Source: Acidobacteriota bacterium
Lineage (GTDB): Bacteria > Acidobacteriota > Terriglobia > Terriglobales > Acidobacteriaceae
DNA: 35,902 nt
NCBI GenBank assembly: GCA_019351975.1
Contig: JABBOG010000017.1
Location: 28,096-63,997 of the forward strand
Reading direction: 5' to 3'
Made by a program: the position numbers and the translations under genes. Below are positions 13,169-28,443 of this stretch, one piece after another; the stretch's first letter is position 1, and each line of letters starts with the position of its first letter. Below the pieces are notes generated by a model. It saw nothing but the letters and a program-made list of their open reading frames with translations. It searched no databases and had not been told where the DNA came from.

Positions 13169-14353
13169 TCAGATGCGCATGGGCATGAGGATGTAGCGGT
13201 ACTTCACATCTTCATTCGCATCTTCCGGCCGCATCTGGCCCGCCGACTGCGCATCCTTGAACTCCAGCCTTACCTCACCCTGAACCCCTGTCGCACGCAA
13301 GAAATCCACCAGGTACGAGCTATTGAAACCCACCACAATCGGGTCATAGTTGTATGGCGTCTCGATAATATCCTCTGACTCGCCCGCATCCGTCGACTGC
13401 GCGCTGATCTTCAATTCATTCTGCTCCAGCCGGATCTTGATCGCCCCCGACCGCTCATCGGCAAACTGCGCCACGCGCTGAATCGACGCCATCAGATCCT
13501 CACTCCGCACGATCACAAACTTCGTATTGTCCCGCGGCAGCACAGCCTCGTAATTCGGAAACTGCCCCGTCAGTTTTCGACTGGTCAGCACCCTTCCGCC
13601 CACCTTGAAGAACAGCGTCTGGTCGTCGTCACCAAACTCCAGATGGTCTGCATCCGACGCCGCCAGCAGGCTCGACAACTCAGCCAGCGCCTTGCGCGGT
13701 ATCAGCGTCTTCTTCTCGCCCGAGATCCCCTCCAGCGTCTCGCCGTGCTTCTCAATATGCGCCAGCCGGTGCCCATCCGTCGCCACCATCGCCATCGACT
13801 CCGCCTTCAACACCAGCAGAGCGCCATTCAGCGTGTACCTCGACTCCTCATTCGAGATCGCAAAGATCGTCTTCGCAATCATGTTGCGCAGCGCCGGCGA
13901 CGAGATCTTGTAGTTCCCCACTGGCGGAAACTCCGGCACCTGCGGAAAGTTCGCACGCGCCATCCCCACCATCTTCGTGTTCGACCGTCCCGACCGGATC
14001 TGAACCCAGTGGTTGTCCATCAGCTTGATCGAAATCTCGCCGTCGCCCAGCAGCTTGATGTAGTCGTACAGCTTGCGCGCCGGAATCGTGCACGCGCCAG
14101 GCTTCTTCACCTTCGCCGCGCAGGAGGTCCGCAGCGACTGATCCAGATCCGTCGCCGTGATCGTCAGACGCCCCATCCCGTCTTCACCCGCCGTCGCTTC
14201 GAACAAAAAATTCGACAGAATCGGTATCGTCGTCTTGCGCTCAACCACCGACTGCGCTGCTGTGAGTTCGCGAAGAAGTTCGGCGCGCGAAACTGTGATC
14301 TCGAGATTCCCTGTGGCGGCGGCGATGTCAGGTGTGATGCTGGCGGTGGACAC
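13169..14353 (-). CDS. dnaN: DNA polymerase III sliding clamp (beta subunit)
   Basis: Ring-shaped dimeric processivity factor that tethers polymerase III to DNA. The product has three repeated clamp domains. The first begins NLEITVSRAELLRELTAAQSVVE and contains TTIPILSNFLFEA, the second has FAISNEESRYTLNGALL and VATDGHRLAHIE, and the third ends in the typical KYRYILMPMRI. I favour the GTG at 14353 (394 residues), because GGGAG lies 8-9 bp upstream. The in-frame ATG at 14383 has no Shine-Dalgarno and adds ten residues. A longer-than-usual N-terminal lead of about 18 residues precedes the conserved start. The gene lies downstream of the candidate origin at 14540-14619, and dnaA is 5 kb away on the opposite strand. 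Confidence 0.96.
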   Translation of the reverse strand: MSTASITPDIAAATGNLEITVSRAELLRELTAAQSVVERKTTIPILSNFLFEATAGEDGMGRLTITATDLDQSLRTSCAAKVKKPGACTIPARKLYDYIKLLGDGEISIKLMDNHWVQIRSGRSNTKMVGMARANFPQVPEFPPVGNYKISSPALRNMIAKTIFAISNEESRYTLNGALLVLKAESMAMVATDGHRLAHIEKHGETLEGISGEKKTLIPRKALAELSSLLAASDADHLEFGDDDQTLFFKVGGRVLTSRKLTGQFPNYEAVLPRDNTKFVIVRSEDLMASIQRVAQFADERSGAIKIRLEQNELKISAQSTDAGESEDIIETPYNYDPIVVGFNSSYLVDFLRATGVQGEVRLEFKDAQSAGQMRPEDANEDVKYRYILMPMRI

Positions 14354-14539
14354 GGTCTTGTCTCCCTTGGGCTCCTCGCGCATTGCGCTGGAGGCGTTCC
14401 CTGTGCGGCGGTTGCCTTGATTTTAGGGTCTCGGAGGCCTTTCGTGCGAGATTCCTGCCTGTGAATTTCAGGGTGCCTCTTGTGGGGTGCACGTCTCAGC
14501 GTCTTGCACCACTCTCATCCTGCTCCAACGGACTGCGAG

Positions 14540-14619
14540 GTAAGAATGCTTCTATAAAACATGGTGAAAGGATAGATATTTCTAGTAGTAGTAACCGTTG
14601 TGCGTGGAAGAGTGGATAA
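14540..14619 (-). other. oriC: Candidate replication origin unwinding region (oriC core)
   Basis: Read on the minus strand toward dnaN, the parts are in the order described for the basal unwinding system of bacterial origins. First comes a strong DnaA box, TTATCCACT (14611-14619, 8 of 9 to TTATCCACA), then 3 bp, then a weak box CCACGCACA (14599-14607), then a 4-bp spacer ACGG. Next is TTACTACTACTA (14583-14594), whose other strand reads TAG-TAG-TAG-TAA, matching DnaA-trios. It is followed by an AT-rich tract to about 14540. This is the same relative orientation to dnaN as in B. subtilis. The rpmH-dnaA gap contains no comparable arrangement. Only one strong box is visible, so the call is an inference from architecture. 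Confidence 0.6.
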
Positions 14620-14950
14620 GACGCCCATATCCGCATAAACACTCATCCCAACCACGGTACAAGCTTTCCAAAACCCGTCCCTTCTTTCAAGAACAAGTAG
14701 GAAGACCAGCCTCATCGCTCAGGTTTCGCATCTGCTTTTCCAACGTACCCACAACCTCCCTGCACAGCCCCTGAGAAATCATGCCCCCGGTTGTGCGGAG
14801 CAGGTCAGAAACACCATGAAACCAGCCCTTCACCGCAGCCGGTTTTTCTACAGCCCACGCACCATGGAGAGGAAATCCGGACATCAACGCACAACCACAC
14901 GCGCGCAGTCCTTCGCGGACGTCTACGCTCGATTCCTGTGATTTGACTCG

Positions 14951-14982
14951 AAAAAAAAAGACGCGCGTCCCCACCACGCGTC
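14951..14982 (-). terminator. Rho-independent terminator after jag
   Basis: On the minus strand, GACGCG and CGCGTC (plus coordinates 14977-14982 and 14960-14965) can form a GC-rich stem, followed by nine T residues (A-run at 14951-14959). It lies about 110 bp beyond the jag stop and would end the rpmH-to-jag transcript before it enters the candidate origin. Confidence 0.6.
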
Positions 14983-15089
14983 CGTCTACCCGTCGCCGGG
15001 CCCATCCCTGCACTATCTCGATCCACACTGGAGAACGCGCAGACGCGCAACCCGCACCGCTAGGATCCAGTTGTCGGCCGCTACGAAGC

Positions 15090-15659
15090 TCAGTAGCTGC
15101 TGCGAGCGCCCTGCCGCCGCGGTGTGCGCCTGCGGTCGGGTCCGCCATACGAGCGCTCAACCGGGATTCGGTAGCCCTCCGGGTACAGCACAACGCACCG
15201 CCGCGGTCCCTCCCCCGAGCTCGCCGTCTGCAGCCCGGAGTCCTTCAGAAACATATGCAGCATCCGCCGCTCACGTGAGTTCATCGGTACGAACCGGAAC
15301 GGCTCACCCGTATCCTCGACCTCATCGATCGCATCCTCGGCAGCCTCGCGAAGTGCCCGCGCACGCGACGCCTTGAAGCCGTTGGCGTCAAACGACACAC
15401 GGTCATGGTCATCCGGCTCCAGCCGCAGCATCTTCGCCGCCAAATGCTCTAACGATCGCAGCAGCTCTCCATCGTTTGCCAGCAAAAGCTCAGTATCCGG
15501 GCCCTTGCACTCAACATAGATGTCCCGGCGTTCGAACCCATCCGGATCGGCGGCTCCGGCTCCCGCTGTAATGCGGTACTTCAGACTCAAACCACCGGTT
15601 GTGGTAACCAGCCGCATCAGAGACGCAACGGTCTCAGCAGCCTGATTAAGATCTTCCAT
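15090..15659 (-). CDS. jag: Jag/KhpB-like RNA-binding protein with KH and R3H domains
   Basis: Cytoplasmic RNA-binding protein usually encoded beside yidC. KhpB/Jag homologues affect cell division and envelope functions. The start at 15659 (MEDLNQAAETV) has AGAAGGAA just upstream, and an earlier in-frame codon at 15734 is not supported. The 189-residue product has a KH-like region (about 35-95) and an R3H domain (about 100-170) with RARALREAAEDAIDEV, PMNSRERRMLHMFL (the R-x3-H signature) and GEGPRRCVVLYP. The N-terminal Jag_N domain of Firmicute Jag is absent. The KH GXXG loop is degenerate (ELLLANDGELLRSLEHL), so RNA binding may rest on R3H. It ends in a basic tail, GPDRRRTPRRQGARSSY. It is the last gene of the rpmH-rnpA-yidD-yidC-jag group. 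Confidence 0.9.
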   Translation of the reverse strand: MEDLNQAAETVASLMRLVTTTGGLSLKYRITAGAGAADPDGFERRDIYVECKGPDTELLLANDGELLRSLEHLAAKMLRLEPDDHDRVSFDANGFKASRARALREAAEDAIDEVEDTGEPFRFVPMNSRERRMLHMFLKDSGLQTASSGEGPRRCVVLYPEGYRIPVERSYGGPDRRRTPRRQGARSSY

Positions 15660-15841
15660 AAAGCGGAATTCCTTCTGCGTAGTACGATATAGTGAACATA
15701 GAGATAAGGAATTTGAAGCGTAATGCAAATTCACAATCTCTCACTCTATTATCCCACGTTGTGAAAATCTTTCACGCAGAAGTGTGCGATGTCCGCAATC
15801 CCGTGGATGGCGATACGTCGTGCTGGGCCTTGACAAATCTG

Positions 15842-17677
15842 TTATTTCTTCCCTTGCAGTGTCTTCGGTGACGCGGCCCGCAGCACCTTCGGCGGCACCG
15901 TCTTCCGCCGCGCTCGCTGTGCGGCTATCTCCCGCATCTCGCGTCCCAGCGACGTTCGGTTCATCGCCAACTGCTGCGCAATCATCACTAAATTGCCGAT
16001 GTTCCAATACAGCGCCAATCCCGACGCGTAATTCCACGTCATCCATCCCGAAAACGCCGGCATCATGAAGGCCATCATCTTCTGCTGCTGCGGATCAACC
16101 CCCGGCGACGGCGTATAGTACTGCGCCAGGAACGATGTAATCACCATCGTGATCGGCAGAATATGATACGGGTCGGCGGCCGCCAGATTCGGTAGCCAGA
16201 AGAAATGCGCCTGTCGAAGCTCAACCACTTTGGTCATCATCGTGAAGAATGCAAACAGCAAAGGCAGCTGGATCAACGATGGGATACATCCGCCCAGCAT
16301 GCTTACGCCGTTGGCCTTCTGCAGCGCCATCACCTCGGCGTTCATCTCTGCCGCCTTCGGATCGGTCGCCTTCGGGTTGTTATACTTCGCCTTGATCGCG
16401 TCAATCTGCGGCTGTAACCGCTGCATCTTTACCGCCGACTTCATGCCCTGCACCCTCAGTGGCAGCAGCACAATGTAGATCAGCAGCGTAAAGAGCACAA
16501 TGGCCCATCCCCATGAATAGTTATGCACGCCCGTGTCATACGGCGCAATCGCCGCATGCACCGCTCGCAGCCCAAGGAAAAGGTACTTCCCAATAAATCC
16601 AAAGAATCCAAAGTCCAGCAGCGGCTCCAACGTTCCGCCGTCCGCCGTGTGAATGCTCTTCAGCACCGAAACGTCCTTAGGCCCGACGAAGATGCGCGTC
16701 TCCGTATGTCCGGAGAGCGCTCCCACCGCCGTCCCCAGCACCGGCAGCAGCAGCGGCTTGTTGCTCTTCGACATCGTCTCGCCCGTGATATTGCTGCGCT
16801 TCACCTTCGTTACATCGATCTTGTGCGAGAACGTCACGACAGTCGAATCACTCGGCTGCGACGGCAGAAACACTGCCGCAAAATACTGGTCGCTGGTGCC
16901 CGCAAAGTCGAACGAGCCACTCAATGTGTTCCCGCCGATGACCTTCTTGATCGCAAGATGGTCCGTCTTTCCATCTTCATTCGTATCCACCTGCGCGCCC
17001 GCATACGCCATGGTCGTCTCCATGTCGCCCAGTCCCGCCGGCCACGCCAGCAGCGCCCGCACCGGCACCCCGTTGCGCAACACCTCGGTATTCGCGCGAA
17101 TCACATAGTCGGAGCCAAACGTGAACGTCTTCGTCACCGCCAGATCGCCCGCCGCATACTTGAACGTCAGGCTTGCAGGTGCCTCCACCGTCCCCGTCTC
17201 CGACGCCACATACAGCGCATTCGCCAGCTGGTTCGTCAGTCCCGCGTCATACGTATAGAGCGAAAGCGGATAGCCATACAGTGCAGCCGCTCCATCATGC
17301 ACCAGATCCAGCGGATGTCCTGCCTCGTCCTTGTACTTCTTCAAAATCCACGACGTCACCTGTCCGCCGCGATTCGAAAATGTAATCCGGTATAGTTCGT
17401 TCTCTACCACCGTCGAAGTCTGCGCTGCTGCCGCGAGCGCAGGCGTCGCTGCCACTGCTCCCGCGCCCGCCGGCGCCGTCGGAGAAGAAGCCCCGCCTGG
17501 CTCCGCAGGTGCTGCCGCTGCTGGCTGATGATCCGGTGACGCTGTCTGCGGATTGTGTGCGCTGCGCCAGTATTGGAGCCCGAAGATGACGCCCAGCATG
17601 ACAAGCATCATAAGGAGAAACGAACGGCTGTCCTGGCTGCCGCCACCGCCCTGATTGGGATTACGAAACTCTGGCAA
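15842..17677 (-). CDS. yidC: Membrane protein insertase YidC
   Basis: Inserts and folds inner-membrane proteins, alone or with SecYEG. The 611-residue product has an N-terminal membrane helix (about 18-37), an Ala/Pro-rich linker (about 40-88), a large periplasmic beta domain (about 90-345) and the five-helix insertase core (about 360-575). Core motifs include WGWAIVLFTLLIYIVLLPLR, KMQRLQPQIDAIKAKY, GGCIPSLIQLPLLFAFF and ASGLALYWNIGNLVMIAQQ. A basic tail (RARRKTVPPK) ends the protein. The start is a TTG at 17677 with AGGAA 8 bp upstream, giving (M)PEFRNPNQGG. Oddly, Tyr401 occupies the place that I align with the groove arginine (Arg366 in E. coli YidC). It is preceded by yidD and followed by jag, as usual. 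Confidence 0.96.
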   Translation of the reverse strand: MPEFRNPNQGGGGSQDSRSFLLMMLVMLGVIFGLQYWRSAHNPQTASPDHQPAAAAPAEPGGASSPTAPAGAGAVAATPALAAAAQTSTVVENELYRITFSNRGGQVTSWILKKYKDEAGHPLDLVHDGAAALYGYPLSLYTYDAGLTNQLANALYVASETGTVEAPASLTFKYAAGDLAVTKTFTFGSDYVIRANTEVLRNGVPVRALLAWPAGLGDMETTMAYAGAQVDTNEDGKTDHLAIKKVIGGNTLSGSFDFAGTSDQYFAAVFLPSQPSDSTVVTFSHKIDVTKVKRSNITGETMSKSNKPLLLPVLGTAVGALSGHTETRIFVGPKDVSVLKSIHTADGGTLEPLLDFGFFGFIGKYLFLGLRAVHAAIAPYDTGVHNYSWGWAIVLFTLLIYIVLLPLRVQGMKSAVKMQRLQPQIDAIKAKYNNPKATDPKAAEMNAEVMALQKANGVSMLGGCIPSLIQLPLLFAFFTMMTKVVELRQAHFFWLPNLAAADPYHILPITMVITSFLAQYYTPSPGVDPQQQKMMAFMMPAFSGWMTWNYASGLALYWNIGNLVMIAQQLAMNRTSLGREMREIAAQRARRKTVPPKVLRAASPKTLQGKK

Positions 17678-17820
17678 AAGGGATTCCTACGCTTTCCTAA
17701 GACTGCACCGTGCGCGCAGCCAGCTAACTTCTAATGGTAAATGGTGAATCTTCCTGCAGTGCGGCAGATGCAAGGCTTTAAAACATCTCGCTCGCAACAA
17801 ACTTCCTCACTGCATCGCCT

Positions 17821-18069
17821 CTACGGCACCGGATCATGACCACCCTCCGCAAACGGACGGCAGCGTCCAAGCCGCCGCAGGGCCATCCACCCGCCCCGCC
17901 GCCATCCATGCCGCACCACCGCCACATACGCATATTCGCTGCACGTCGGCAGAAACTTGCACTGCGTCGGAGCAAACACATGCAGCAGCGGCGAAACCAC
18001 CCGCTTGTGAAGCACAAGCAATCCCGCCGCAATCCGCTCCCGCCGTGCCGTCGATTCGCCGCCACTCAC
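17821..18069 (-). CDS. yidD: Membrane protein insertion efficiency factor YidD
   Basis: Small membrane-associated protein that assists YidC-dependent insertion. The 82-residue product carries the family core: VLHKRVVSPLLHVFAPTQCK, then FLPTCSEYAYVAVVRHGW with the conserved Cys pair, and RRLGRCRPFAEGGHDPVP at the end. Translation starts at a GTG whose last bases overlap the rnpA stop (GTGA), indicating translational coupling. Other open frames over the same DNA are shadows. It is followed by a 143-bp gap before yidC. Confidence 0.94.
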   Translation of the reverse strand: MSGGESTARRERIAAGLLVLHKRVVSPLLHVFAPTQCKFLPTCSEYAYVAVVRHGWRRGGWMALRRLGRCRPFAEGGHDPVP

Positions 18070-18503
18070 GGCCGCTCCACCGGCGCTCTGCTCGCTTCAC
18101 CTGGCTGCGTGCCCGCTGTTCGCCCCATGGAAACCTTGCGATCACAAGCCGCCTGCACACTACGAAAGATCGTCGCCACTTCACGTTGCAGCGCAGGAAA
18201 ATCCATTTCGATCACCACTCGCCGCGGATGCAGGATCACATCCACCGGAGCCGTGAGCAGCGGCAGCGCCGCACGTACTGCTTCGCGCATGCGCCGCTTG
18301 ATCCGGTTGCGGTCTACGGCCTTGCCCAGCGCCTTCGGTACCGTCAGCCCAATGCGCGCGCCCGGCGTATCCGAGCGCCTGTCCGCACCGCGCAGCGCAT
18401 AAAAATACGCGATCTGCTTGGCGAACTGCTTTCTACCCGCCTTATAGACAATCTGATATTCGGCATGTTTGCGCAGGCGATGTGTAGTTCCAGCAGTCGG
18501 CAT
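18066..18503 (-). CDS. rnpA: Ribonuclease P protein component
   Basis: Protein subunit of RNase P; it binds the catalytic RNA and pre-tRNA leader to make mature tRNA 5' ends. The product (145 residues from the ATG at 18503) shows LRKHAEYQIVYKAGRK at the N-terminus, GLTVPKALGKAVDRNRIKRR with the RNR motif and REAVRAALPLL. A C-terminal extension of about 35 residues after FRSVQAA is not part of the usual fold. The open frame extends to a TTG at 18530, but the ATG fits family starts better. The 3' end overlaps yidD by 4 bp. The gene is separated from rpmH by a cupin gene, which is unusual because rpmH and rnpA are generally adjacent. Confidence 0.94.
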   Translation of the reverse strand: MPTAGTTHRLRKHAEYQIVYKAGRKQFAKQIAYFYALRGADRRSDTPGARIGLTVPKALGKAVDRNRIKRRMREAVRAALPLLTAPVDVILHPRRVVIEMDFPALQREVATIFRSVQAACDRKVSMGRTAGTQPGEASRAPVERP

Positions 18504-18558
18504 CGGCTCGGCTCTCAGCACGTCTTTCAAAGGTTTGGCTCGACCCGCGAGATCTCGA

Positions 18559-18963
18559 TTAGGCCCCGCTCGATCGCGGTGCAGCTTCTGTCATCTGCGC
18601 TGCAATCGATCGCGTCATCGGAGTCTGTTCTCCGCCCGTATGCTCCGTGGTCACTGTCTCAATCAGCGCGATCCACGTCTCTTCCGCAGCTGCGGTATTG
18701 TGCCTTACCCCTCGCCGCACAACAAAGAACTCACCCGCTCGCACAAGAACATCTCCGCCGTCGGAAGGCGCGCGGCCAATCCGCAGCTCCCCGCGCAACA
18801 CCAGAAACATCTCGTCCTCATCAGCATGCGCGTGCCACGGAAACTCGCCCTGAACACGCGCTACCTTGATGAACTGATCGTTTACCTGACCCACGACCCG
18901 CGGCGACCAAAGCTCGGGGAGAGCACTGCACGCGAGATCGAGTGAGATCGGATGCTCTTGCAT
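18559..18963 (-). CDS. Cupin-domain protein inserted between rpmH and rnpA
   Basis: Single-domain cupin of 134 residues with no assigned substrate. The first cupin motif is EFPWHAHADEDEMFLVLRGE, with the metal-ligand pattern His-x-His, Glu, and the second is GEFFVVRRGVRHNTAAAEE with a His ligand. It therefore could bind a divalent metal. The C-terminal 30 residues are Thr/Ser/Ala-rich. The start at 18963 lies only 14 bp after the rpmH stop and the 3' end is about 55 bp before rnpA, so it is almost certainly transcribed with them. A cupin in this conserved operon is unexpected. Whether it is a resident of this lineage or recently inserted cannot be read here. Codon use is similar to that of its neighbours. 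Confidence 0.85.
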   Translation of the reverse strand: MQEHPISLDLACSALPELWSPRVVGQVNDQFIKVARVQGEFPWHAHADEDEMFLVLRGELRIGRAPSDGGDVLVRAGEFFVVRRGVRHNTAAAEETWIALIETVTTEHTGGEQTPMTRSIAAQMTEAAPRSSGA

Positions 18964-18977
18964 CGTCGTCGCCTGAG

Positions 18978-19133
18978 CTAGTCGCGGAAGCCAGCAGAAA
19001 CGGCAATCTTGTGGCGACCCTTCGCACGGCGGCGGCTCAGTACGGCCGCACCGGCCTTCGTGGCCATGCGGACGAGAAATCCGTGGACCTTGCTGCGACG
19101 GCGACGGTTAGGTTGGAAGGTACGTTTCGGCAT
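18978..19133 (-). CDS. rpmH: 50S ribosomal protein L34
   Basis: Small basic protein of the large ribosomal subunit. I translated it from the minus strand as 51 residues beginning [20 protein letters not shown] and ending [10 protein letters not shown]. It includes the typical RRAKGRHKI segment and matches L34 in length and motif order. It starts at the ATG at 19133 and stops at TAG (18978-18980). It is the first gene of the rpmH-cupin-rnpA-yidD-yidC-jag series and is divergent from dnaA across a 552-bp gap. Confidence 0.97.
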
Positions 19134-19251
19134 GATGTGTGTCCTGTCTCAAAGTGTCTGCTGGCTCTGCGGTGCTGTCGCCAATGCTGGCAACCAAACC
19201 TGCGGAAAGGCTCTCAAGTGGCCTGATTCCCGCTCCCGGCAGCAAGTCTTG

Positions 19252-19280
19252 AGTATATCCGAGTTGAGGAAAACCAGCAA
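19252..19280 (-). promoter_or_regulatory. Putative rpmH operon promoter
   Basis: On the minus strand TTGCTG (-35-like, 19275-19280) and TATACT (-10-like, 5 of 6 to TATAAT, 19252-19257) are 17 bp apart. This would place transcription start near 19245, leaving about 110 nt of leader before rpmH. The -35 match is weak. Confidence 0.4.
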
Positions 19281-19515
19281 CGAAATACCGCTCGCCAACC
19301 CCACTCCCTCTTCCCGATTCGCGGTTATCGCAGCCCTTCATCAATTCTTCACAAAGGATGGTGCAACTCAAAAAAACTTTCTCCGATTGCCCCGTTTGGG
19401 CTGCCAAACATGCCGCTCGCGCGTGCTAGTATCGATTCCGTTCTGTTGTGTATGAAACTCTCGCAGTGGAGATTTCACGGGCCGATGTATGGCTTCATTT
19501 CATCCAGCACAAAGT

Positions 19516-19545
19516 TTGACGCTGGACTTCAAGAGCATCTACGAT
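19516..19545 (+). promoter_or_regulatory. Putative dnaA promoter
   Basis: TTGACG (5 of 6 to the -35 consensus, 19516-19521) and TACGAT (4 of 6 to the -10 consensus, 19540-19545) are 18 bp apart. The predicted start near 19552 leaves a leader of about 130 nt before the dnaA ATG. Confidence 0.45.
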
Positions 19546-19685
19546 AGAAAACTTCGCGACCGCCCCTCCGTCGCGTCGCCGGTCATTGTTTGCACCTTTT
19601 TCAAGCACCTGTACGCAAACTTGCCTCCTGCGCCGAAGTTCCTACCGTAGCCTCTGCTCCAATGAAAGTAAGGAAGACTTAGACG

Positions 19686-21098
19686 ATGTCATTTGTTCCA
19701 GTCCCGGCCGCCGTCCTGAACCAGTGGGTTCGTATCCTCGGTGCGCTCGAGAAGAAGATCAATCGCCAGAGCTTCGAGACCTGGCTCAAGCCAACCCGGT
19801 TCTCGCACATCAGCGGCCGAACCCTCAACGTTCGCATCCCCTCCGAAGAGTTCCAGCACATCGGCGACCGCTACGGCGATCTCATCGGTGAAGCCATCGA
19901 CAACCTCGGCCTCGAGATCGACGAGGTCGTCTTTCAGGTTCCCCCTCAGGAGGCCCCCGTCCGCGTCCGCGAAGACGGCGGATTCGCTCCCCAGCCCACC
20001 CACAGCCAGAACGCCCCTCGCCGCTCCAGCGGCAATCCCCCGCCTGCTGGCCCGGAGCAGGCTCGCTTCGACTGGAACTCCGCCGCGCAGCTCAACCCGC
20101 GCTATCAGTTCGACTCCTTCGTCATCGGCAGCGGCAACCAGTTCGCTCAGGCCGCAGCGCAGGCCGTCGCCGAGCGCCCCTCCAAGGCCTACAATCCCCT
20201 TTTCCTCTACGGCGGCGTCGGCCTCGGTAAAACCCATCTCATGCAGGCCATCGGCCATCTCGTCAAAGCCCGCAACGCTCAGGCCGCCGTCAGCTACGTC
20301 TCCGGCGAAAAGTTCACCAACGAGATGATCAACTCCGTCCGTTACGACAAGATGATCGGCTTCCGCGACAAGTACCGTAACGTAGACGTCCTCCTCATCG
20401 ACGACATCCAGTTCCTCGCCGGCAAGGAGCGCACCCAGGAGGAGTTCTTCCACACCTTCAACGCCCTCCACGAGCAGAACAAGCAGATCGTCGTCGCCAG
20501 CGACCGCCCCCCTAAAGAGCTCAACGACTTTGAAGACCGTCTCCGCTCCCGCTTCGAGTGGGGCCTCGTCGTCGACATCCAGCCCCCCGACCTCGAAACC
20601 AAAGTCGCCATCCTGCAGCGCAAGGCCGAGCTCGAACAAACCGTTCTCCCCACCGACGTCGCCCTCTTCATCGCCGGCAACGTCCGCACCAACGTCCGCG
20701 AGCTCGAAGGCGCGCTCGTTCGCCTCATCGCTTGGTGCTCCCTCCACGGCGTCGAGATCACCCTCCCCACCGCGCAGCAGTGCCTCAAGCAGTTCATCGA
20801 CACCCAGGTCCGCAAGATCACCATCGAAGCCATTCAGCGCGCCGTCGCCGAGTCCTTCGGCATGCGCGTCGCCGAGCTCAAGCAGAAAAACAACTCCCGC
20901 CAGATCGTCGTCCCCCGCCAGATCGCCATGTACCTCGCCAAGCAGCTCACCGAAGCCAGCCTGCCCGAGATCGGCCGTCAGTTCGGCGGCAAACACCACA
21001 CCACCGTCATGCACTCCATCTCCAAAATCGACGAGCAGCGCAGAAACGACAAGGACCTCAACCGCACCGTCAACAAGCTCATGGAAACCCTCGGCTAG
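19686..21098 (+). CDS. dnaA: Chromosomal replication initiator DnaA
   Basis: AAA+ ATPase that binds DnaA boxes and opens the origin. The 470-residue product has domain I (about 1-85: WVRILGALEKKINRQSFETW), a Pro/Ser-rich linker (about 95-135) and the AAA+ domain (about 138-350). Walker A is GGVGLGKTHLMQAIGH and Walker B is VLLIDDIQFLAGKE. The signature QFDSFVIGSGNQFAQAAA is the usual domain III opening. DNA-binding domain IV ends with GGKHHTTVMHSI, which reads the box, and TVNKLMETLG. AAGGAAG precedes the ATG by about 12 bp. It is divergent from the rpmH operon. dnaN is not downstream but 5 kb to the left, on the other strand. Confidence 0.97.
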   Translation: MSFVPVPAAVLNQWVRILGALEKKINRQSFETWLKPTRFSHISGRTLNVRIPSEEFQHIGDRYGDLIGEAIDNLGLEIDEVVFQVPPQEAPVRVREDGGFAPQPTHSQNAPRRSSGNPPPAGPEQARFDWNSAAQLNPRYQFDSFVIGSGNQFAQAAAQAVAERPSKAYNPLFLYGGVGLGKTHLMQAIGHLVKARNAQAAVSYVSGEKFTNEMINSVRYDKMIGFRDKYRNVDVLLIDDIQFLAGKERTQEEFFHTFNALHEQNKQIVVASDRPPKELNDFEDRLRSRFEWGLVVDIQPPDLETKVAILQRKAELEQTVLPTDVALFIAGNVRTNVRELEGALVRLIAWCSLHGVEITLPTAQQCLKQFIDTQVRKITIEAIQRAVAESFGMRVAELKQKNNSRQIVVPRQIAMYLAKQLTEASLPEIGRQFGGKHHTTVMHSISKIDEQRRNDKDLNRTVNKLMETLG

Positions 21099-28218: not shown

Positions 28219-28443
28219 ATGGACTGGTCCGCATGTGACATCGTCGAGATCAACCCCCGCAAGGTCAGCGGTGCCCCCATCCTCAAAGGTACCCGCGTTC
28301 AGGCCGACAGCATCGTTGAAAACTACCAGACCGGCTCCGACATCGAAGAGATCGCCGAAAACTTCGCCATCCCCGCAGCCTCGGTTCGCGAACTCCTTGC
28401 CTTCGCCGCCAGCACCGTACTAAGCATCGCCCAGTGTGAATAA
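28219..28443 (+). CDS. DUF433 antitoxin-like protein (VapB-type), no paired toxin visible
   Basis: 74-residue member of the DUF433 family, DNA-binding antitoxins normally paired with a DUF5615 PIN-like toxin. Family features: MDWSACDIVEINPRKVSGAP, then PILKGTRVQADSIVENYQTG and a C-terminal winged-helix-like part, IEEIAENFAIPAASVRELLAF. The start at 28219 is fixed by AGGAGG at 28207-28212. The 160 bp after its stop hold no recognisable DUF5615 frame, so it looks like an orphan. It may regulate its own promoter or the divergent thrS. A HigB/HigA-like pair follows downstream. Confidence 0.85.
   Translation: MDWSACDIVEINPRKVSGAPILKGTRVQADSIVENYQTGSDIEEIAENFAIPAASVRELLAFAASTVLSIAQCE

Follow-up and report, generated by a model that had tools for sequence, protein, structure and literature searches.

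A probable origin unwinding core upstream of dnaN in Granulicella-like Acidobacteriota

The chromosomal origin of Escherichia coli, oriC, includes the R1 box and a DNA unwinding element; the locus described here has the same juxtaposition of DnaA boxes and a candidate AT-rich unwinding element and is unlike it in gene neighbourhood and architecture. A closer counterpart is the basal unwinding system (BUS), the unwinding core described in Bacillus subtilis. The rules that we took from part of PMC8287927 are a DnaA box with at most two mismatches, a spacer of at most 16 bp and at least three trios with a middle A on the right strand; the most frequent arrangement given there (57%) has a second, co-oriented box near the trios. 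PMC6669920 describes a distal B. subtilis box that is active in opposite orientations at 44, 132, 297 and 462 bp upstream and whose action is helically phased; the authors interpret this behaviour as a DNA loop. Excerpts of PMC10721633 name five base-capture residues of DnaA and report that the amino group of the middle trio base touches Asn187, that a middle C preserves the unwinding rate in vitro, and that, in vivo, strains with C substitutions surpass those with G or T in growth and initiation. The Helicobacter pylori oriC, as outlined in part of PMC8235120, likewise has a box adjoining a trio motif used in unwinding; it is bipartite and belongs to another lineage, and we liken it by description, not by sequence.

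The window, that is, the whole stretch of 35,902 bp analysed here (G000:C66:28096-63997), comes from a 3.9-Mb draft genome (132 contigs) whose nearest named relatives include many Granulicella, Edaphobacter and Terriglobus. The minus strand of its dnaN-jag gap carries TTATCCACT, CTTCCACGCACAACGG and TTACTACTACTA. Read 5' to 3' on that strand, TTATCCACT (14619-14611) is followed by CTT, CCACGCACA, ACGG and TTACTACTACTA (14594-14583). The features are as follows.

13169-14383, minus strand: dnaN, DNA polymerase III beta subunit (TIGR00663, E 4.2e-78)
14384-15089, no strand: dnaN-jag intergenic region (706 bp), which contains the module
14540-14582, no strand: AT-rich stretch toward dnaN, the presumed unwinding region
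14583-14594, minus strand: four DnaA-trios, TTA CTA CTA CTA (plus strand 3'-AAT GAT GAT GAT-5')
14595-14602, minus strand: box-trio spacer, including a conserved AACG (14599-14596) of which the A and C of A.C belonged to the row filter and the G occurs in 64 of 75 elements
14603-14611, minus strand: box-like TCTTCCACG, a possible second DnaA site, in an 8-bp register with a 1-bp overlap with the first box; its TTTCC is kept in 75 family elements, and DnaA may bind here
14611-14619, minus strand: DnaA box TTATCCACT, the upstream anchor of the module, with one mismatch to TTATCCACA; its core TCCAC is nearly invariant in 75 family elements
14663-14674, minus strand: conserved GTTTTnnAAAnC motif (family consensus), 44-55 bp upstream of the BUS box
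14745-14753, plus strand: mid DnaA box position (-134), GTACCCACA, weak, with two mismatches to TTWTNCACA
14844-14852, plus strand: far DnaA box position (-233), TTTTCTACA, with one mismatch to TTWTNCACA
19686-21098, plus strand: dnaA, replication initiator (PF00308, E 4.3e-75; B. subtilis 8btg, E 6.8e-140)

The original prediction had placed a box, a weak box, a spacer and trios in this gap, with an AT-rich stretch toward dnaN and a dnaA some 5 kb away that points elsewhere. All of these letters are in place, the AT-richest 60 bp of the window (AT 0.68) begins at 14540, and dnaA lies 5.3 kb from the module and is directed away from it. Like the B. subtilis BUS, the module combines a DnaA box, a short spacer, 3'-GAT-type trios of the same polarity and AT-rich DNA adjoining dnaN. 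It also resembles that system in its distal boxes, which in the cited B. subtilis work can act from more than 100 bp in either orientation, and in a DnaA with base-capture residues. Unlike in the B. subtilis BUS, the strong box here has T as its last base, the uncertain second box would share one base with the first, many trios of acidobacterial relatives have a middle C, and dnaA lies behind an inverted block. Based on its sequence features, we read the module as the unwinding core (BUS) of the chromosomal origin oriC, from which replication would fire, with a probability of about 0.87.

Measured against the rules excerpted from PMC8287927, TTATCCACT has a single mismatch, the 16 bp between TTATCCACT and TTACTACTACTA equal the published maximum spacer, and four trios with a middle A lie on the right strand. 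Many relatives carry a middle C (70 of 300 trios), and these would match the published trio pattern only partly. A stricter box-plus-trios rule (at most one mismatch to TTATCCACA, a spacer of 0-16 and at least four [C/T]TA trios) has one match in the window and none in 200 dinucleotide-preserving shuffles; the combination of box and trios is therefore not due to chance. In the whole window, the only second site with one mismatch to TTATCCACA is at 28435 (minus strand). Perfect copies of TTATCCACA are absent from the module, and 10 occur elsewhere in the genome.

The element is widely conserved beside dnaN. A DnaN search matched 56 of 61 genomes, and 30 loci were retrieved, 26 of them from the same genus and including the window's own. 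All 25 same-genus loci with enough upstream sequence (L004, with only 149 bp, was left out) have the element upstream of dnaN in the same register, bearing out the proposed conservation of box-trio spacing. Scored against a drafted consensus, they reach 16-20 of 20, and the trios of some, e.g. L021, are weak. The strict scores of four other-genus loci (12-14) are at shuffle level; the box-trio form is visible in the alignment for L029 and L031. The wider family set consists of 80 named loci plus the window's own, G002 and G007, and overlaps with the genome set, some genomes being present in both. The score cut was passed by 76 of the 82 family loci with at least 300 bp upstream of dnaN (L040 is short). 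The failing loci are L055, L084, L086 and L117, in which no recognisable element was found, and L078 and L116, which carry the element in altered or shifted form. In another four genera of the family, scores exceed those of the respective shuffles. Beyond the family, a convincing element was found in none of 10 sister-family loci (one with only 249 bp), and among six loci at class level seven trios accompany a clear box in G059, while G053 has a short version.

The core is also close to single-copy. With up to two mismatches, the genus pattern is present in 27 of 28 same-genus genomes, exactly once in the window's own genome and a second time, at two mismatches, in five; the match in G013 lies off its dnaN contig and may be chance. 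Across all 61 genomes, this pattern yields 11 matches away from dnaN compared with 2 for a reversed-pattern control, so that weak extra matches are slightly above the control. In 10 of 11 genomes, the element is the one and only match to the family pattern at 0-1 mismatch; in G002 it is matched at two mismatches, as is one other site. Allowing three mismatches gives no more matches than the control in most of these 11 genomes.

Further boxes lie upstream at fixed distances. Among 74 loci with 262 bp upstream, boxes in the opposite orientation (up to two mismatches to TTWTNCACA, within 4 bp) occur near -231 (about -232) in 71 and near -133 in 61, but near four control offsets in only 0, 2, 2 and 4. 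In the 800 bp upstream of dnaN, 82 loci together have 306 DnaA boxes with at most one mismatch, compared with 59.8 in shuffles. The proposed scan of the gap with TTWTNCACA found TTTTCTACA (plus strand). The original prediction had counted only one strong box, which holds, but a one-box origin does not, as TTTTCTACA and GTACCCACA occupy family-conserved positions. Nor did its weak box CCACGCACA fare well. It is not conserved. What relatives keep instead is a TTTCC that immediately follows the strong box and forms a box-like TTTTCCA in the 8-bp register; the register of box and trios is retained in genus and family. TTTCC is a possible second trio-proximal box, and CCACGCACA is probably not the real one.

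The gene order is dnaN, the 706-bp gap, jag, yidC, rnpA, a cupin-like ORF and rpmH, all on the minus strand, followed by dnaA on the plus strand. The cupin-like ORF (18559-18963) is our own reading, without an NCBIfam match; among the related loci searched, only L069 has a match to it. In G002 the order is dnaA (50-1471), element (2229), dnaN (2591), and the cited part of PMC6669920 places the B. subtilis unwinding region in the same position, between dnaA and dnaN. Both genes are on the same piece in 44 of 83 dnaN loci, with dnaA directed as dnaN in 33 and oppositely in 11, a group that includes the window and G007. In these 11 loci the jag-yidC-rnpA-rpmH-dnaA block (15090-21098 in the window) is inverted relative to dnaN, and in most of them dnaA and dnaN are separated by the rpmH-to-jag side, as expected after an inversion; L052 and L074 deviate in detail. 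The distance of dnaA from the module is thus most simply explained if the jag-dnaA block was inverted and one of the breakpoints fell between dnaA and the module; judging from gene order, the module would have stayed with dnaN. Contig C60 of the window's genome (L002 and beyond) has a second, weaker DnaA-domain match (E 2.6e-10) and two perfect TTATCCACA copies 3.5 kb apart.

The gap between rpmH and dnaA is a common origin site in bacteria. The true origin could accordingly be the rpmH-dnaA gap (19131-19685), with the dnaN-side module as an accessory. The window's gap contains two or three one-mismatch boxes, conserved blocks run across 15 aligned loci, and boxes with at most one mismatch exceed shuffles in 39 loci (71 versus 32.4). 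This enrichment is weaker than that upstream of dnaN, however, the conserved blocks resemble a dnaA promoter by our reading, and no trio array was seen in the window's gap, the box-plus-trios rule finding the dnaN site only. We consider an origin in the rpmH-dnaA gap very improbable.

To describe trio variation, we compiled 75 distinct family elements with four trios each (300 trios), one of 76 having been removed by the A.C filter in columns 20-22. Trios were framed so as to give 3'-GAT-5', and counts of the middle base are to be read with an element-picking score that favours middle A and weights C, G and T alike. On the trio strand, the first place is G in 252, A in 28, C in 12 and T in 8 trios. 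The third place is T in 200, C in 86, A in 11 and G in 3. The middle place is A in 225, C in 70, G in 3 and T in 2, and hence A or C in 295 of 300; the window's own trios have a middle A only. Parsimony on the dnaN tree, with counts that depend on one tree and short columns, gives 53 middle-base changes, 48 of them between A and C, compared with 42 changes in the first place (25 between G and A) and 65 in the third (53 between T and C). Judging from these alignments, the middle base avoids the transitions that neighbouring bases make freely, since its own changes are almost all A-C exchanges and theirs are mainly transitions. At the sequence level, the variation in the family matches the base-capture prediction in the cited portion of PMC10721633. 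The window's DnaA, for its part, has Asn212, Ile215, Arg227 and Glu253 identical to the capture residues and Val218 as a conservative replacement for Ile193, consistent with a DnaA that contacts trios.

The position of the module, 150-500 bp upstream of dnaN in most loci, would also fit a regulated promoter, in which case the boxes would belong to a DnaA-controlled dnaN promoter region and the trios would be incidental. That explanation is highly unlikely in our judgement, as it leaves unaccounted for the box-trio register, the trio periodicity and the A/C-restricted middle base, as well as the boxes at -133 and -232.

An oriC would adjoin dnaA or dnaN and have several DnaA boxes; the module adjoins dnaN and comes with one strong and two weaker boxes. 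A GC-skew switch at the site is the further feature looked for, and the original prediction had made its presence at 14.5 kb a test that could refute it. Because the raw skew in the contig has the same sign on either side of the module, it was recomputed at fourfold sites with gene-strand correction, based on a crude gene caller (long GC3-biased ORFs) whose results agree in sign with raw 20-kb skews for strongly skewed pieces. No switch at the module was found in the contig at fourfold sites, the skew being negative on both sides. Of the window's called ORFs, 30 have enough fourfold sites; plus-strand skew is negative in 28 of these and no higher than -0.60 in 21, with ORFs of either strand and on either side of the element among them. 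About 12 kb of contig C66 just left of the window is nearly skew-free. The closed same-genus genome G002, whose record starts adjoining dnaA, has positive corrected skew in 11 of 11 samples over 0-3 Mb and negative skew in 8 of 11 in the rest. Its genome-scale switch lies near dnaA-element-dnaN at a resolution of ~150-300 kb, and its skew is as for a one-origin chromosome.

The closed sister chromosome G007, which has the window's gene order, differs from this pattern. Between 1,545 and 2,745 kb (L180-L239), its fourfold-site skew forms an N-shaped sawtooth of about ±0.7 that is largely independent of gene strand. Over these 1.2 contiguous Mb with 10-kb smoothing, four rises pass through ±0.3 in 5-7 kb and five falls take 14-32 kb; steps above 0.5 are upward in 13 cases and downward in 6. 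The same sawtooth covers 97 kb of G062 contig 1 (120-217 kb; L240-L243, L050), where the element lies inside a negative domain. In neither genome is it centred on the BUS. In 66 family loci, skew to the left of dnaN correlates with skew to its right (+0.81), with left below and right above zero in 13 and the reverse in 5, and all 12 loci with skew above 0.4 on both sides have one sign. The mean right-minus-left skew of 0.056 (s.e. 0.024, n=68) has the expected sign and is small. No skew step peaked at the BUS was found across loci, steps being similar at splits up to 4 kb away. In strongly skewed members, skew neither supports nor locates the origin; given the many skew switches of sister chromosomes, the test is confounded in this lineage. 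A GC-skew switch is no defining feature of oriC in genomes with disturbed skew. Of the proposed oriC, what stands is an element that is conserved, single-copy in 10 of 11 genomes and stays with dnaN; the weak box and the one-box origin are not supported, and a skew switch is absent from its own contig.

The sawtooth raises another explanation, in which the module is a working DnaA site and most forks start elsewhere, at many sites whose record is the strong skew. Some Granulicella-like chromosomes would then replicate, or would recently have mostly replicated, from many bidirectional starts besides the dnaN BUS. Sharp rises and gradual falls, as in G007 and again in G062 with its module in a negative domain, are what multi-origin chromosomes should show; simple inversions would be expected to leave equally sharp edges in both directions. 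The left-right correlation at dnaN and the missing switch in the window's contig also fit such starts. For other species, bacterial skew has been proposed to reflect many origins (PMC3269012), a reading against which PMC4403523 cautions. Skew is indirect, however, and its form could stem from rearrangement, transfer or another strand-specific process. No copies of the BUS were found at upward skew steps, and no further module copy at 0-1 mismatch in 10 of 11 genomes; six G007 rises that we inspected have only scattered one-mismatch boxes, and one G007 rise lies ~4-10 kb from the element itself. With G002 resembling an ordinary one-origin chromosome within the same genus, we regard both general replication from many starts and its occurrence in some of these chromosomes as unlikely. 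A simple inversion history is possible for the skew switches but leaves the slower falls unexplained. Loss of RNase H was rejected as a cause of origin-independent starts, as ordinary G002 and sawtooth G007 are alike: strong RNase_H (PF00075) matches (E 1.4e-34 or better) occur in 8 of 61 genomes, all outside the window's family, where the best match is weak (E 1.6e-12), and RNase HII is present in 57 of 61.

Returning to the module as the unwinding core of oriC, we infer a course of events from the elements, spacing, conservation, trio base pattern and capture residues computed here. DnaA would bind the trio-proximal box or boxes, assisted, probably via a DNA loop, by the distal boxes ~133 and ~232 bp upstream. 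It would then polymerise onto the trio strand, capturing the first two bases of each 3'-G(A/C)(T/C)-5' trio, whereupon the AT-rich DNA on the dnaN side would open, the helicase would be loaded there and the origin would fire.

Among the matches listed in our literature searches, no title describes this acidobacterial element or the sawtooth. In at least two of these chromosomes, strand composition switches repeatedly. The 75 family elements provide an evolutionary test of nucleobase capture, and since nearly all exchanges of the middle base are between A and C, real origins could escape a search that insists on a middle A. For a soil lineage that is large and has been little studied, the module would locate the probable core of the origin to the base, together with distal boxes that keep a fixed spacing.
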